A DNA stretch of 64,000 nt from Lentzea fradiae (GTDB taxonomy: Bacteria; Actinomycetota; Actinomycetes; Mycobacteriales; Pseudonocardiaceae). Both the position numbers and the translations under genes were made by a program. Shown piece by piece: positions 50,617 to 56,406 of the stretch. The stretch is from positions 310,001 through 374,000 of the forward strand of contig NZ_FNCC01000001.1 of the NCBI RefSeq assembly GCF_900100955.1. Direction: 5' to 3'. The notes below the pieces were generated by a model. That model had not been told where the DNA came from and did no database searches. It saw only the letters and a program-made list of their open reading frames with translations. The first letter of the stretch is position 1, and each line of letters opens with the position of its first letter.

Positions 50617-51138
50617 CTACAGAGCGTTCAGGGTGGCGAGGTAGGTCTCTCGCGTCTTGTCGATACAGCCGCCCAGCTCGACCACCGTCGCGTTCGTCCC
50701 GGCCGAGAGCGCGGAGCGGGCGACGGTGCGTGCTTCCTCGAACTGGTTGCGCAGCAACGACTTCAGGTGGTCGTCGGGGTCGGGCGCGTGCTCGGCGGCG
50801 GCCAGCTCGGCCGCTGTGACCATGCCGGGCATGTCATGACCGTCGTGCTGGTCCGACTCCGGCCTGCCCGCCCGCGTGAGCACCTCCCTGACCCGCGCCA
50901 GCTCGGCCCGGTAGGCGGGGGCGACCTGGTCGGCCAGCGGGCGCAGCGCGGAACCGGGTCTCACCAGGGCGAGCGCGGCGAGCGCCGTCTCGTTCTGGGG
51001 GATCACCAGGTCCAGGAACGCCAGGTCGGTGGCCGACAGCTCAGGTGCGGGAGAAACAGGGTGTGGCGCAACGGGTGCAGGGGCCGCTGCGCCACACCCC
51101 GCCGCCGCCAGGACGGCGGCGACGACCAGTGCCCGCAC
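50617..51138 (-). CDS. DUF305 lipoprotein
   Basis: 173 aa. A lipobox LAAAGC near residue 16 makes it a membrane-anchored lipoprotein. The DUF305 part has FLDLVIPQNETALAAL, in which the usual metal-ligand histidines are largely absent (a typical motif is H-x2-A-x2-M), and a HDGHDMPGM segment later that has retained two His and a Met. GTG 51138 shares a base with the upstream DUF1996 stop (TAGTG), so it is translationally coupled to it. It is the last gene of the sigma-GH128 operon. Confidence 0.72.
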   Translation of the reverse strand: MRALVVAAVLAAAGCGAAAPAPVAPHPVSPAPELSATDLAFLDLVIPQNETALAALALVRPGSALRPLADQVAPAYRAELARVREVLTRAGRPESDQHDGHDMPGMVTAAELAAAEHAPDPDDHLKSLLRNQFEEARTVARSALSAGTNATVVELGGCIDKTRETYLATLNAL

Positions 51139-52196
51139 TACGGACGGCCGTCGGGTCCGCACTTGACGATCCGGTTGATGCAGTCGCGCACCCGCAGCGC
51201 CATGTCCTCCTCGGGCCAGGCGTTGAAGAAGTCGCCGTGCATCGTGAAGCCGGGGCCGGACGCGAGCTTGATCCGCGCCGGGTCACCCGTCACCGGGTAG
51301 CGCAGCACCTGGCGCAGCTTCGGCACGGGCACCGGGTGCGTCGACGGGCACTCGTTCGCGACCGGGTAGGCCATGTGGCTCTTGTGGTCGGCCGAGTCGA
51401 GGTCCTTGCCGTTCCAGCACTGCGGGAAGTCCAGGTAGGACTCGAGCATCGAGCCCTCCGGGCAGTTCACGAAGTCCTTGGACGGCTCGACGTGCCCGGC
51501 GTGCAGGCAGGACCAGCGGGACTGGGTGCTGCCGTCGGGCGCGGTGGCCTTGGCGTTGCCCGCGACGATCCGCAGCCCGTGCGGGAGCGGCTGGATGCGC
51601 GCGGTCACGTCGTCACGCACGCCTTCACCGAGGTAGTAGAACGTCGTGCCGGTCGGCTCGACCGGTTGGCCGTCGACGAGCAGCGTGGGCACCCAGTAGG
51701 ACGAGAGGTCCTTCTTGGGGTTGCACGAGGTCTCGGCCTTGTCGAGGTCCTCGACGGTGGTGTGGGCGTTCGTGGAGACGTTGCCGAAGAAGCTGTGCAT
51801 GTGCGATGCGCCGGGCAGGTTCGGCAGGACGATCGGGTCGTCCGGCAGCCGGTGCGTGAACGGGCACTCCGCGACGAACTCGGCGACGCGCACGGCGTTC
51901 GCCGGGATCGGCTCCTGCGCGGGCAGGTTGAGAGCGGCCTTGGGTGCGTCCTGGGCGGTCGTCGCGCCGGACGTGCCCTCCGCCGGAGCGGTGGCGGGAG
52001 GAGCGGCCTGCTGCTGGTGCTGCTGTTCCGGCGTGGAGGCAGGGGGCGTGGTCGACGAGGTCGCCGCGGGCGGGTTCTTGGGGGGAGTGAAGAACATCGC
52101 GTTCGCGGTCACCGCGGACGCCGCAACACCCGCCACGGCGAGGGCGGCGATCAACACGCGCCTCCGCATCCGGGACGGAATCGGGGCGTGGGCCAT
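51138..52196 (-). CDS. DUF1996 secreted protein
   Basis: 352 aa with a signal/anchor helix (about 12-33), a Pro/Gln/Thr-rich linker (about 38-100) and a DUF1996 domain (about 100-350). Conserved features include AECPFTHRLPDDPI, SHMHSFFGN and SRWSCLHAGHVEP and four or more Cys, plausible disulfides. DUF1996 is known in fungal and bacterial secreted proteins, often beside carbohydrate-binding WSC modules. It is 65 nt downstream of the sigma-GH128 gene and shares its strand. Confidence 0.88.
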   Translation of the reverse strand: MAHAPIPSRMRRRVLIAALAVAGVAASAVTANAMFFTPPKNPPAATSSTTPPASTPEQQHQQQAAPPATAPAEGTSGATTAQDAPKAALNLPAQEPIPANAVRVAEFVAECPFTHRLPDDPIVLPNLPGASHMHSFFGNVSTNAHTTVEDLDKAETSCNPKKDLSSYWVPTLLVDGQPVEPTGTTFYYLGEGVRDDVTARIQPLPHGLRIVAGNAKATAPDGSTQSRWSCLHAGHVEPSKDFVNCPEGSMLESYLDFPQCWNGKDLDSADHKSHMAYPVANECPSTHPVPVPKLRQVLRYPVTGDPARIKLASGPGFTMHGDFFNAWPEEDMALRVRDCINRIVKCGPDGRP

Positions 52197-52261: not shown

Positions 52262-54097
52262 TCAGCCCGCGTCGCGGTAGGCCAGGCCGGCCTGGTTGGG
52301 GGTGCCGCCGGGGGCGTAGAGACCGGTGCCCGGTTTGTCGGCGGGCAGCGCGAACCACGCGTAGCGCTCGACGTAGGGGAGGCTCTCCATCATGGCGGCG
52401 GAGCCGCGGGCGAAGGCCGCCTGCTGCTCGGGAGACGGGTAGCGGGGTGACCCGCCGGAGAAGTCGATGAGGGCGTACTCGGTGAGCCACAACGGTTTGC
52501 CGTACCGCTTGTGCACGGCTTCCAGGTAGTTCCTCAGGTGTCCGACGGCGGCGTCGCCGAAGTCGGAGCCGTACCAGTGCACCGCGATGAAGTCGACGCG
52601 CAGACCTCGTTGCGCCGCACCGGACATGAACCGGTCGAGCCAGCCGCCCGGCTTGTCGCCGCTGTGCGCGACGGCCGGGCTGCCGAGCCGCAGCCCGGTG
52701 GCGGCGAGCTTCGGCCAGAGGTCGAGCGCCTGCTCCGGCGACATGTCGGCCTGGTCGGGGAAGTCGGGCTCGTTGAACCCGAGCAGCACCTTGCCGTTGG
52801 CCTTCGCGCGGGCGATCGTGGCGTCGTCGGTGAACTTCGTGCCCCAGATCATCGGCACGAACTCGACGTTCGGCGGCGTGGCGACACCGTCGGGGTGCAC
52901 GGCCCAGTTGTAGTACCAGCCCGCGCGGACGTCGGTGAGCGCTTTGCCGACGCCGTCGAAGTTCCAGGTGCTGACGCCCTTCTTGGCCGCGACCGTCACC
53001 GGCGTGACTGGCGGAGGAGGAGGCGGCGCCGCGACGGACGTCGACGACGGGACCGTGGTGGTGGTCGTGACCGGCACGGACGAGGACGCGACGGTGGTGA
53101 CCGGCGGCGTGCGTCCGGTCGCGACCGCGATCGTGTTCGCGACCGGCTGCTCCTCGCGGGACGGCACCACGGCGACGACGATGCCCGCGGCCACCACCGC
53201 GGCCGCCGCGGCGGCGACGGGTTTGACGAACGCGCCCTTGAGCAGCAGCCCGATCTTGCCGGTGGTGACCGGGTCTCCGGCGGCGTGCGAGAGGACGGCG
53301 TGCGCCCCGGCCGGGGCGGACGGGTCGAACGCGAACGCCGCGGGCAGCGGCACCAGCGGCAGCCGGGCGATGAGGCCCTCGACCGCCGCGAGGTCGGTGC
53401 CGCAGCGCTCGCAGCGCGCGCAGTCCCGGGCGTGCCGGGCGATCCGCTTGCGCCACAACGGACTCGGGTCACCGTCCCAGTCGGCCACGACCTCGGCCAG
53501 GTCGGGGCAGCGGGGCGTGCGTTCGAGCGTGCGCACGACGATCCGCGCGGAGTCGAGCTGCGCCTTGACCCGTTGCACCCGCACAGCGGTGTGCTGCGGC
53601 GTCAGGTCGAGCGCGTTGGCGACCTCAGCGCGGGTGAGCCGCCCGGCCGCCTCCAGCCACCACAGCGACAGCAGCTCGCGCTCGTCCGCGCTGAGCCACC
53701 GCGTCGCCGCCACGACCTCGCGTCGCTGCCCGGACAGCTGCAGCCGCATGATGGTGAGGTCGACGAAGTCCGCGCCGGGGTCGGCGATGTCCTCGACCAT
53801 CGGACCGGTGACCGGCACCCGCTCGCGTTCGCGGTGCCGCAGCCGGATCTGGTTCATCGCGATGACGACGAGCCACGACCGGAACCCCGCGGGGTCGCGC
53901 AGCGACGACAGCCCGTGCACCGCGCGCAGCATCGTCTCCTGGACGACGTCGTCGGTGTCCTCGTGACCGCCGAGCGCGTGCCCCACGATGTTGTAGACGA
54001 GCGGCAGGTACCCGCTCACCAGGTCGTCCAGCGCACGCTGGTCGCCGTCGCGTGCGGCTTCCACCGTCGCGACGCCGGGCTCCCGCGCTGCCGTCAT
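52262..54097 (-). CDS. ECF sigma factor fused to a zinc finger, membrane helix and GH128-like glycosidase
   Basis: 611 aa. Residues 12-90 are sigma region 2 (DDVVQETMLRAVHG, GFRSWLVVIAMNQIR) and 135-185 region 4 (LSADERELLSLWWLEA then TRAEVANALDLTPQ). A H-x3-C-x2-C zinc finger (His222, Cys226, Cys229) typical of anti-sigma domains follows, then one helix (291-311), a Val/Thr/Ser/Pro linker (315-370) and a TIM-barrel glycosidase (374-611) with GFNEPD (Glu443) and WLTEYAL (Glu540), as in Asl1/GH128 beta-1,3-glucanases. The single helix puts sigma inside and enzyme outside. ATG 54097 has GAGG upstream. The gene heads an operon with DUF1996 and DUF305 and diverges from GH76. ECF groups with long membrane extensions are known; a glycosidase end is notable. 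Confidence 0.85.
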   Translation of the reverse strand: MTAAREPGVATVEAARDGDQRALDDLVSGYLPLVYNIVGHALGGHEDTDDVVQETMLRAVHGLSSLRDPAGFRSWLVVIAMNQIRLRHRERERVPVTGPMVEDIADPGADFVDLTIMRLQLSGQRREVVAATRWLSADERELLSLWWLEAAGRLTRAEVANALDLTPQHTAVRVQRVKAQLDSARIVVRTLERTPRCPDLAEVVADWDGDPSPLWRKRIARHARDCARCERCGTDLAAVEGLIARLPLVPLPAAFAFDPSAPAGAHAVLSHAAGDPVTTGKIGLLLKGAFVKPVAAAAAAVVAAGIVVAVVPSREEQPVANTIAVATGRTPPVTTVASSSVPVTTTTTVPSSTSVAAPPPPPPVTPVTVAAKKGVSTWNFDGVGKALTDVRAGWYYNWAVHPDGVATPPNVEFVPMIWGTKFTDDATIARAKANGKVLLGFNEPDFPDQADMSPEQALDLWPKLAATGLRLGSPAVAHSGDKPGGWLDRFMSGAAQRGLRVDFIAVHWYGSDFGDAAVGHLRNYLEAVHKRYGKPLWLTEYALIDFSGGSPRYPSPEQQAAFARGSAAMMESLPYVERYAWFALPADKPGTGLYAPGGTPNQAGLAYRDAG

Positions 54098-54381
54098 GCT
54101 CACCTCACTTGCCGGTCCAGGACTCTCTCTGAACAGGAGATGTCCGGGCTTCACGGCGATAACGAAAAATTCTCGGCGACTTGGGCCGAGCGTCTCAACT
54201 GGCCTGTCGAGGGGGCGTGTCACCGGCCCGCCGCGACGGCGGAAGTAGACCACGAGGCCGTGTGAGATCCGGGTAGGGACGCGGGAATTTCTGTCCGGGA
54301 CATGAACGCGCCAGCCCGTTGACCTGGAGCTGCCCGGGTCACGACCATGAGAGCGTTCCCACGAACGCGGGGGTGGTCGGC
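54098..54381. other. 284-nt divergent promoter region between sigma-GH128 and GH76
   Basis: No gene is visible. It includes a mildly AT-rich island (ATAACGAAAAATTC near 54160) and GGGAATTT near 54286, and must hold both promoters. I cannot assign an ECF-type -35/-10 pair with confidence. Confidence 0.5.
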
Positions 54382-56406
54382 GTGCTGAACCTTCTCGTGG
54401 CCCTTCTGGTGGCGCTCGCGCTCGCACCCGGCAGCAGCCCTTCGTGGACGCCGCCTGTTGAGACGGTTTCGGCCGGCGGTGCGCCGGACGGCGTAGCGGC
54501 CGGGGACGCGTGGGGTGGGGCGGCGGAGACGGAGGCCGCACCGCTTGGCGCCGCGCCGCCTTCCGGCCCGCCGAGCAGCACCGCACTACCAGCCGCCCAG
54601 CCCGACTCACCGCAGCCCACCGCACCACCTCTAGCCGCCCCGCCCGGCACGCCGCAGCCCACCACTCCACCTCTCGCCGCCACCGAGCTCGTCTGCGTCC
54701 TGCACTGCGACACCCGCGACCCGTCCCGGGCGGCCCAGGAGACGTTCCCCGTGCCGGAACGGCAGGTCAACGGCCGCCGCCTGGTCCTGCACGTCTCCGA
54801 CCGCGACGGGATGGCGTGGGGCAGCATCGACAACGGCGTCACGGGCGACTCGGTGTGGCTGGACCGGTCGTGGGACGGCGGTGCGAGCTGGGAGGGGTTG
54901 CTGGACCGGGCGAGCGTCCCGGCCTCGTGGACCGGTACCCGCACGCTGATGTACAACGTCACCGACCCGGTCCACCACCGGCGCGGCCTGATCCGCGCGT
55001 GCGGGGACGCGGCGGCGGTGACGTGCACGGACTGGATCTACCCCGCGGTGTGCGACGTCCTGTGCGACGGGGCGGGTGCCACGCAGGCCAACGGTGACGC
55101 GCAACCCGTTCCGCCGGCGACGTTGTCCGGTCGCACCATCCGGCTGCACACCGACCTGAACGGCATGGCGTGGGGCACGGTCGAGGCGGGCGGGCCCGGT
55201 GACGAGGTCTGGCTCGACCGGTCCTGGGACGGCGGGGCGAGCTGGCCGGGCGGGTCGTCGCTGGGGCGGACGTCGACGCCTGCCGGTGCGACGGGCACGG
55301 GCACCACGTTGTTCGCCACCCGCGACCCGCGTGGCCGGCACTTCGGTGGTGCCGTGCGCGCGTGCGGGCGGGAGGCGGCGCACCAGGAAGGCAGCTGCAC
55401 GGCGTGGGCGCGGCCGGTGCCGGGCCGGGTGCGGGCGGCGGCGGACGCGTTGATGTACGACTACGACCCGTCTGCCGCCTGGTGGCCGACGAGCTGGTGG
55501 AACTCGGCGACGACGCTCACGGCGCTGCTGGACTCGGGAATCCGGGAGTACGACTGGGTGGTCGCGCGGACGTTCGACGTCAACCGCGGCACGTTCGCGG
55601 CGGGAGAGCGCGGCACCGACCCGGTCGAGGGGAACTTCATCAGCCGTTCGATCGACGACAGCGCCTGGTGGGGGCTGGCGTGGGTGGCCGCGTACGACCG
55701 CACGGGCGACCGGCGCTACCTGGCGATGGCGACCACCATCGCGTCGTACGTGCACCAGTACTGGGACACCCGCACGTGCGGCGGTGGTGTTTGGTGGGAC
55801 CGCGAGCGCACGTACAAGAACGCCGTGACGAACGGCCAGTACGTCAGGCTGACCGCGTCGATCCACCGCCGGACGCCCGGCGACACCCTGTGGCTGCGGC
55901 GCGCCCGGACCGCCGCTGACTGGTACCTGGCCAGCGGCATGGTCAACTCGGCGAACCTGGTCAACGACGGGCTGAACGGCTCCTGCCGCAACAACGGCGG
56001 CACGGTCTGGTCCTACAACCAGGGCCTCGCCATCGGCGGGTTCACCGAGGTGTGGCGGGCGACGCGGGACAGCCGGTACCTCGACGCCGCGCGACGGCTC
56101 GCGGACGCCGCGATCACGAGCCCGGTCTTGACGCGCGACGGCGTGCTCACCGAGTCGTGCGACCTGTCCGCGTCCTGCGACGACAACCAGAAGCAGTTCA
56201 AGGGCGTCTTCATGCGCTACCTGAACGACCTCGCGCGGGCCACCGGGGCCGGCGCCTACCAGCAGTACGCGCGCCGCCAGTCCGACTCGGTGTGGACGGC
56301 GGGGCGGGACGCGCTGAACCGGATCGGGCAGCGCTGGGCCGGTGGCGCGCCGAACCAGGTGGACTGGCGCACGCAGGCGAGCGGGCTCGACGCCGTCGTC
56401 TCCTGA
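54382..56406 (+). CDS. Secreted GH76 alpha-1,6-mannanase with duplicated N-terminal modules
   Basis: 674 aa. A hydrophobic signal (about 1-18), a long Ala/Pro/Thr-rich linker (20-100), two copies of an about 90-residue module sharing WLDRSWDGGASW and a Cys pair, then a GH76 alpha/alpha barrel (about 350-670). The catalytic Asp pair in SIDDSAWWG is residues 425-426. GH76 enzymes cut alpha-1,6-mannan of fungal walls or mycobacterial lipomannan. It diverges from the sigma-GH128 gene, whose sigma part may control it. The GTG start is uncertain; GTG 54373 is an in-frame alternative. Confidence 0.85.
   Translation: MLNLLVALLVALALAPGSSPSWTPPVETVSAGGAPDGVAAGDAWGGAAETEAAPLGAAPPSGPPSSTALPAAQPDSPQPTAPPLAAPPGTPQPTTPPLAATELVCVLHCDTRDPSRAAQETFPVPERQVNGRRLVLHVSDRDGMAWGSIDNGVTGDSVWLDRSWDGGASWEGLLDRASVPASWTGTRTLMYNVTDPVHHRRGLIRACGDAAAVTCTDWIYPAVCDVLCDGAGATQANGDAQPVPPATLSGRTIRLHTDLNGMAWGTVEAGGPGDEVWLDRSWDGGASWPGGSSLGRTSTPAGATGTGTTLFATRDPRGRHFGGAVRACGREAAHQEGSCTAWARPVPGRVRAAADALMYDYDPSAAWWPTSWWNSATTLTALLDSGIREYDWVVARTFDVNRGTFAAGERGTDPVEGNFISRSIDDSAWWGLAWVAAYDRTGDRRYLAMATTIASYVHQYWDTRTCGGGVWWDRERTYKNAVTNGQYVRLTASIHRRTPGDTLWLRRARTAADWYLASGMVNSANLVNDGLNGSCRNNGGTVWSYNQGLAIGGFTEVWRATRDSRYLDAARRLADAAITSPVLTRDGVLTESCDLSASCDDNQKQFKGVFMRYLNDLARATGAGAYQQYARRQSDSVWTAGRDALNRIGQRWAGGAPNQVDWRTQASGLDAVVS

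Follow-up and report, generated by a model that had tools for sequence, protein, structure and literature searches.

Does a single gene of Lentzea fradiae encode a sigma factor that carries its own extracellular sensor and, if so, what does the protein sense and which genes does it serve? The question arises from the initial annotation of a 64,000-nucleotide stretch of the genome (hereafter, the window), which described an ECF sigma factor joined in one chain to an extracellular glycosidase and proposed that binding or cutting of a polysaccharide is signaled through the membrane to free the sigma factor. We confirm that the ECF sigma-GH128 fusion is real, and we observe in it an intact catalytic pair, the ligands of a zinc finger, and the topology signals of a membrane protein, along with a conserved promoter-like motif upstream of the gene.

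From sigma factor to glycosidase in one chain

The reading frame of the fusion opens with the ATG at 54097 and proceeds, on the minus strand (which the initial annotation had not given), through 611 codons to a TGA without any internal stop (Table 1). Two observations had been named in advance as fatal to the fusion, namely, a frame broken by sequencing error and relatives in which the halves are separate genes. Both are excluded, since the same single-gene fusion is uninterrupted in about 50 relatives, and we dismiss a sequencing error as its origin. These intact GH128 fusions, recovered by scanning genome contigs and whole genomes, occur in the Pseudonocardiaceae (Lentzea, Umezawaea, Actinosynnema, Saccharothrix), Micromonosporaceae (Actinoplanes, Dactylosporangium, Micromonospora), Cellulomonadaceae (Cellulomonas), Treboniaceae (Trebonia), Actinospicaceae (Actinospica), and Streptomycetaceae.

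The N-terminal part meets the definition of an ECF sigma factor, i.e., sigma regions 2 and 4, no region 3, and a score above the model cutoff (73.3 bits against 42.9 for TIGR02937, over residues 22 to 182), such that both regions claimed by the initial annotation are recognized. An AlphaFold model, built with 33 natural fusions as input, is confident for the sigma and glycosidase domains and disordered in the stretch between them and in the linker.

Residues 369 to 611 satisfy the requirements for GH128 subgroup I, which are the fold and two catalytic glutamates. Profile Glyco_hydro_cc (PF11790) matches residues 391 to 594 (E value of 9e-52), and all 243 residues align with AmGH128_I, an enzyme of solved structure, at 312 bits and 60% identity. 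The modeled domain (pLDDT mostly above 90) superimposes on PDB accession numbers 6uas and 6uaq with an rmsd of 0.9 to 1.0 Å (TM score of 0.97 by target). E443 and E540 are invariant in all 33 aligned GH128 fusions, and a missing active site, the third potential refutation, can be ruled out. Judged by fold and sequence, the domain is a GH128 subgroup I endo-beta-1,3-glucanase, although its hydrolysis of beta-1,3-glucan is inferred in the absence of an assay. AmGH128_I (6uaq), with the same fold and both glutamates, is a stand-alone enzyme, whereas the fusion has its GH128 domain attached to a sigma factor, at the extracytoplasmic end of the chain.

Between the two lies an anti-sigma-like zinc finger. 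The H-x3-C-x2-C signature noted in the initial annotation is present, but the list of ligands lacked C197, which by alignment completes a four-ligand finger. All four residues are invariant among the 33 fusions, and the sequence requirement for a ZAS domain (H-x3-C-x2-C plus an upstream Cys or His ligand) is fulfilled by 78 of 78 family members, with a Pfam search of the fusion protein failing to recognize zf-HC2. That the finger inhibits the sigma factor is only inferred. There follow the one hydrophobic segment and the Thr/Pro linker that had been predicted; the sigma side of the helix is the more positively charged in 76 of 79 family members and, therefore, the sigma factor is placed inside and the enzyme outside, a topology (cytoplasmic N terminus, extracytoplasmic C terminus) that fits the charge pattern and agrees with the one first proposed.

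Relatives share no conserved neighbor of the fusion gene, only lineage-specific ones, and hence no conserved separate anti-sigma gene. This supports the suggestion that none is needed, with the reservation that a scan with anti-sigma profiles was not part of the analysis.

Table 1. Features of the fusion gene and its surroundings, with positions in the window and residues of the 611-residue chain
Feature	Position	Strand	Basis
ECF sigma/zinc-finger anti-sigma/membrane helix/GH128 fusion CDS, 611 aa	52262..54097	-	Intact in about 50 relatives
Sigma region 2, residues 26-93	53819..54022	-	PF04542, E 6.7e-13
Sigma region 4, about residues 125-190	53528..53725	-	TIGR02937 (22-182); modeled helices, pLDDT 85-93
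Anti-sigma-like zinc finger, C197-x24-H222-x3-C226-x2-C229	53411..53509	-	Four residues in 78/78 family members
Single membrane helix, residues 294-312, Ala/Val-rich, positive side inside	53162..53218	-	KD hydropathy 2.53
Thr/Pro-rich extracytoplasmic linker, residues 313-368	52994..53161	-	Sequence; low pLDDT
GH128 subgroup I domain, residues 369-611	52265..52993	-	Profile, structure match, alignment
Catalytic E443	52769-52771	-	Aligned to GH128 catalytic pair
Catalytic E540	52478-52480	-	Aligned to GH128 catalytic pair
Candidate autoregulatory ECF promoter, GTTATC-N17-TCTCC, 39-66 bp before start codon	54136..54163	-	Family-conserved; single strict genome match
DUF1996 protein, 65 bp downstream of fusion gene	51138..52196	-	PF09362, E 3.2e-49
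Divergent GH76 (alpha-mannanase family) gene	54319..56406	+	PF03663, E 1.8e-38

A family promoter and its putative targets

Upstream of the fusion gene in Lentzea relatives, GTTATC and TCTCCTG are strongly conserved while the sequence around them drifts. Across the family, the pattern GTTAT-N18(19)-TCTC, which was derived from part of the same set, lies 36 to 123 bp before the start codon in 98 of 114 genes, irrespective of the outer domain that they encode; 200 shuffles yield a mean of 0.1 and a maximum of 1, and the reversed pattern yields 0. It is absent from the scanned upstream stretch of the subfamily containing L003 and L107, of L037, of L042, and of 12 others. Within the 8.5-Mb genome of L. 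fradiae, the strict form GTTAT-N18-TCTCC occurs once only, before the fusion gene, and among 32 further named genomes, 30 likewise have a site upstream of the cognate sigma gene. Autoregulation by an ECF sigma factor would predict just this pattern of one strict site, placed before its own gene, and the comparative inference is strong, but there are no expression data and transcription is not proven.

Additional copies of so rare a motif should point to any further targets of the sigma factor. The strict motif identifies no targets outside the fusion operon in L. fradiae itself, where it precedes neither the stand-alone GH128 enzyme nor the thaumatin-like gene; a scan allowing one mismatch returned 45 matches against 10 for the reversed control, and none of the three sites with an intact GTTAT that were checked is convincing. 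The divergent GH76 gene was dismissed as a target, as it has no strict motif (the window contains just the one) and is not a conserved neighbor. Some motif sites in other genomes are evidently unrelated, being intragenic, at genes of other function, or at origins of replication: GTTATCCACAGG sites, seen repeatedly across four genomes, were discounted because we take them to be oriC DnaA boxes, and a site shared by six genomes, with no gene following it, seems to be located within a conserved gene, in antisense orientation.

The DUF1996 gene is probably in the same operon as the fusion gene. Seven Lentzea genomes lack an adjacent DUF1996 gene, and in all seven a second motif site lies 16 to 87 bp before a distant one; Actinoplanes M2I2 provides one further case of the motif before a DUF1996 gene. 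DUF1996 is therefore placed under the sigma factor, either through the operon or through its own promoter, and such control is very likely on these comparative grounds. The DUF1996 gene overlaps at its end with a DUF305 gene (50617-51162, minus strand), which also stands behind DUF1996 in L017, L033, and L090; the DUF305 gene may be part of the operon.

In relatives with the GH128-type sigma factor, where additional motif sites are few, further putative targets often relate to beta-1,3-glucan. The motif precedes a gene for a secreted GH16-ricin protein, whose closest solved relatives are beta-1,3-glucanases, in Actinoplanes palleronii and Actinoplanes siamensis, and, in Trebonia, a GH64 beta-1,3-glucanase gene and a thaumatin-like gene divergent from the sigma gene. 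Plant thaumatin-like (PR-5) proteins are known to bind or cut beta-1,3-glucan and to be antifungal. Four GH128-type Streptomycetaceae genomes contain seven thaumatin-like genes, every one associated with the motif, six through a site of their own and one as the next gene. A rough binomial estimate for this enrichment (6 of 13 further sites, set against two such genes in about 7,000) is about 1e-18, or about 3e-6 when two orthologous groups are each counted once. Two variant sites, GTTATG-N17-GCCTC, precede the gene of a ricin-GH128 enzyme in Streptomyces sp. NBRC 109706. Genomes in which the sigma factor bears a CAP domain have the same promoter before genes for secreted CAP proteins.

Because the sample includes related species, some of these cases are not independent. 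A beta-1,3-glucan-related regulon in GH128-type relatives is a strong comparative inference; as a broader rule, we infer that the outer domain and the targets share what they act on. The conservation of the promoter in approximately 100 relatives suggests that the sigma factor would switch on its own gene together with secreted proteins that, like its outer enzyme, target beta-1,3-glucan. Less in keeping with this, sites in CAP-type genomes (L230, L234, L239, L233, and L236) precede genes for a secreted protein without Pfam match and for a secreted thioredoxin-like protein.

Outer domains of the family

The sigma/zinc-finger module is well separated from other ECF proteins: in a search of the Streptomycetaceae, full-length members score 264 to 420 bits, and the next full match scores 62. 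Together with the membrane helix, it is joined to at least five kinds of outer domain. CAP is one (36 of 40 in one alignment); others are GH128, a Pel9A-like (pectate-lyase-like) beta-helix, a GH99-like domain, a domain without Pfam match, and, in Antribacter, a long repeat protein that we read from its sequence as propeller-like.

Individual lineages offer several side observations. The GH99-like type is represented by L294, L303, and L309. The Pfam-unknown type comprises L131, L136, L123, L124, L119, and L308, and in this group, nearby or second promoter sites precede genes for alginate-lyase-like and long secreted proteins. In L293 and L266 (G254), the gene divergent to the Pel9A-like sigma gene has the common family promoter and encodes a ricin-lectin protein that partially matches pectinesterase.

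L. fradiae itself encodes a CAP-type paralog (L003, C17:137930-139000; 44% over residues 11 to 361) from a diverged subfamily without the promoter motif, as well as the stand-alone GH128 enzyme mentioned above (L002, 57%). A tree of the sigma/zinc-finger module requires at least two changes to account for the GH128 type, with weak support. The glycosidase domain of L042 belongs to a distant GH128 lineage and, thus, at least this outer domain was acquired or replaced separately. L042 is from Streptomyces sp. NBRC 109706 (L042:4291-7800), where the sigma gene, over 750 bp taken from the GH128 outer domain and part of the linker, shares 98.4% DNA identity with the separate, head-to-head gene of the secreted ricin-GH128 enzyme. 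By sequence, the pair is a case of recent copying between sensor and enzyme.

Proposed signal and release, and relation to known systems

We propose that, at rest, the cytoplasmic sigma regions 2 and 4 would be held at the membrane by the zinc-finger anti-sigma segment of the same chain, while outside, a full GH128 endo-beta-1,3-glucanase would sample beta-1,3-glucan, most likely from the walls of fungi. Once glucan is bound or cleaved, the ectodomain or linker would change, and proteases would cut outside and then within the Ala-rich helix (regulated intramembrane proteolysis), freeing a sigma factor that would read GTTAT-N18-TCTCC promoters, its own first. Sensor and surface glucanase would be amplified together with the downstream DUF1996 protein, and in relatives, secreted GH16 and GH64 beta-1,3-glucanases and thaumatin-like proteins would be switched on as well. 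We consider it probable that the fusion is such a one-protein, membrane-tethered, self-amplifying glucan sensor that induces glucan-active proteins, with both the signal and the release inferred without experiments. The originally proposed polysaccharide signal gains support from promoter and regulon for beta-1,3-glucan specifically, whereas the release of the sigma factor remains as inferential as before: it is by analogy that the finger holds the sigma factor and proteolysis frees it, there being no direct evidence of the latter.

The most serious competitor retains the architecture and the autoregulation but has the ectodomain merely bind, or respond to a ligand different from beta-1,3-glucan (for example, the envelope of the cell itself or some soluble oligosaccharide), with any activity incidental. 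We regard this as a real, if minority, possibility: binding-only GH128 proteins are known (subgroup VII, from PDB titles), ECF52 proteins have a noncatalytic NPCBM domain (PMC5826349), and it is not obvious that the CAP and propeller-like ectodomains in the family act as polysaccharidases. Against mere binding stands the catalytic pair, whose invariance leans toward a working enzyme, and against another ligand stand the targets of the GH128-type genomes, which make the polymer fit even if catalysis is irrelevant. The trigger may be either binding or cutting.

The glucan-sensor reading also has to be weighed against an uncut chain, in which the sigma factor stays tethered and is activated by conformational displacement of the zinc finger. 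There are no protease data to exclude this, and ECF41 and ECF238 work by conformational change (PMC8999054). We nevertheless think it unlikely, because a zinc finger followed by one membrane helix is the plan of ECF48, ECF52, and ECF53, for which proteolysis is expected, and of IutY, for which it has been demonstrated (PMC8999054), and because the Ala-rich helices with an XAA-type motif, present in 61 of 79 family members, resemble the RsgI helices that are cut by RseP before ClpXP degradation (PMC12203970). Least credible is a role of the GH128 part primarily as a surface enzyme, with the sigma end as a simple expression booster without sensing, which would suit the restriction of strict targets in L. 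fradiae to the gene and its operon but not the joining of one N-terminal module to at least five kinds of outer domain with targets that follow them, as a swap of sensors predicts.

A more far-reaching version of the glucan-sensor reading, which we advance only tentatively, is that these proteins form a modular class of enzyme-sensors, each consisting of a single protein. The outer domain would be either a tethered copy or a functional twin of secreted proteins induced by the same sigma factor from a common promoter. Tethered catalysis, rather than binding, would serve as the signal, and copying the domain of a target enzyme could rewrite the sensor. The last element is suggested by the 98.4% identical pair of Streptomyces sp. 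NBRC 109706.

If the glucan-sensor reading holds, one protein is enough for soil actinomycetes to detect fungal beta-1,3-glucan, DUF1996 is assigned to the glucan response, and a modular sigma switch has had its sensor half exchanged in nature among GH128, GH99-like, pectate-lyase-like, and CAP domains. A promoter sequence, a short list of targets, and a polymer are now named, and the system is therefore testable.

Three known systems share parts of this design. SigI/RsgI, exemplified by RsgI6 of Clostridium thermocellum, likewise uses a membrane anti-sigma factor with an extracellular polysaccharide sensor to control enzymes for that polymer, and its RseP and ClpXP steps have been demonstrated (PMC12203970). 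However, it belongs to the cellulosome system of an anaerobic firmicute and is defined by a separate anti-sigma factor for a SigI-type, non-ECF sigma factor, a definition that the fusion, with an ECF sigma factor in cis, does not meet. IutY of Pseudomonas putida (ECF243) has its sigma factor in cis with a membrane anti-sigma factor and is released by proteolysis (PMC8999054), but it serves iron-siderophore signaling and has no enzyme domain. SCO4117 of Streptomyces coelicolor (ECF52), for which positive autoregulation has been proposed, is the only member of such fused groups treated in depth in the literature searched (PMC5826349), and it has an ECF sigma factor, zinc finger, membrane helix, Pro-rich linker, and carbohydrate domain in the same order as the fusion. 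Its outer domain is, however, a binding module, and its published motif, CSGY-N17-SRHA, is unlike GTTAT-N18-TCTCC (PMC5826349). The sigma/zinc-finger modules of SCO4117-type NPCBM proteins are only about 21% identical to that of the fusion, and six of them score no more than 30 bits on the profile of this family, against 300 to 430 for typical members. With no NPCBM domain in the fusion protein, we dismiss membership in ECF52; the SCO4117-type proteins are, by sequence, a parallel plan in a separate clade.

ECF53 of the Actinobacteria is closer, being described in reviews as sigma factors fused to a zinc finger, with one membrane helix or two and a C-terminal extension of up to 400 residues (PMC8999054, PMC10766802), and with glycoside hydrolase domains predicted in some members. 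The fusion protein fits this description and likely belongs to ECF53, on architecture only, without comparison to the reference WP_030276194.1 or an ECF53 model. According to a 2024 review, glycoside hydrolase and carbohydrate-binding domains are predicted in certain ECF52 and ECF53 proteins but lack validation by experiment (PMC10766802); the review credits the predictions to Huang 2015 and Pinto 2019. Since such fusions had already been reported computationally, the initial description of a catalytic glycosidase sensor as unusual has to be softened. Within the literature that could be searched, which excludes the primary classification papers, neither the GH128 identity nor the promoter, the regulon, or the match between outer domain and targets is described, and a full-text search for GH128 together with sigma factor returned only a metatranscriptome paper. 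The sigma-GH128 fusion is a further variant of the known ECF52/53-type fusions, which have so far been lists of predicted domains.
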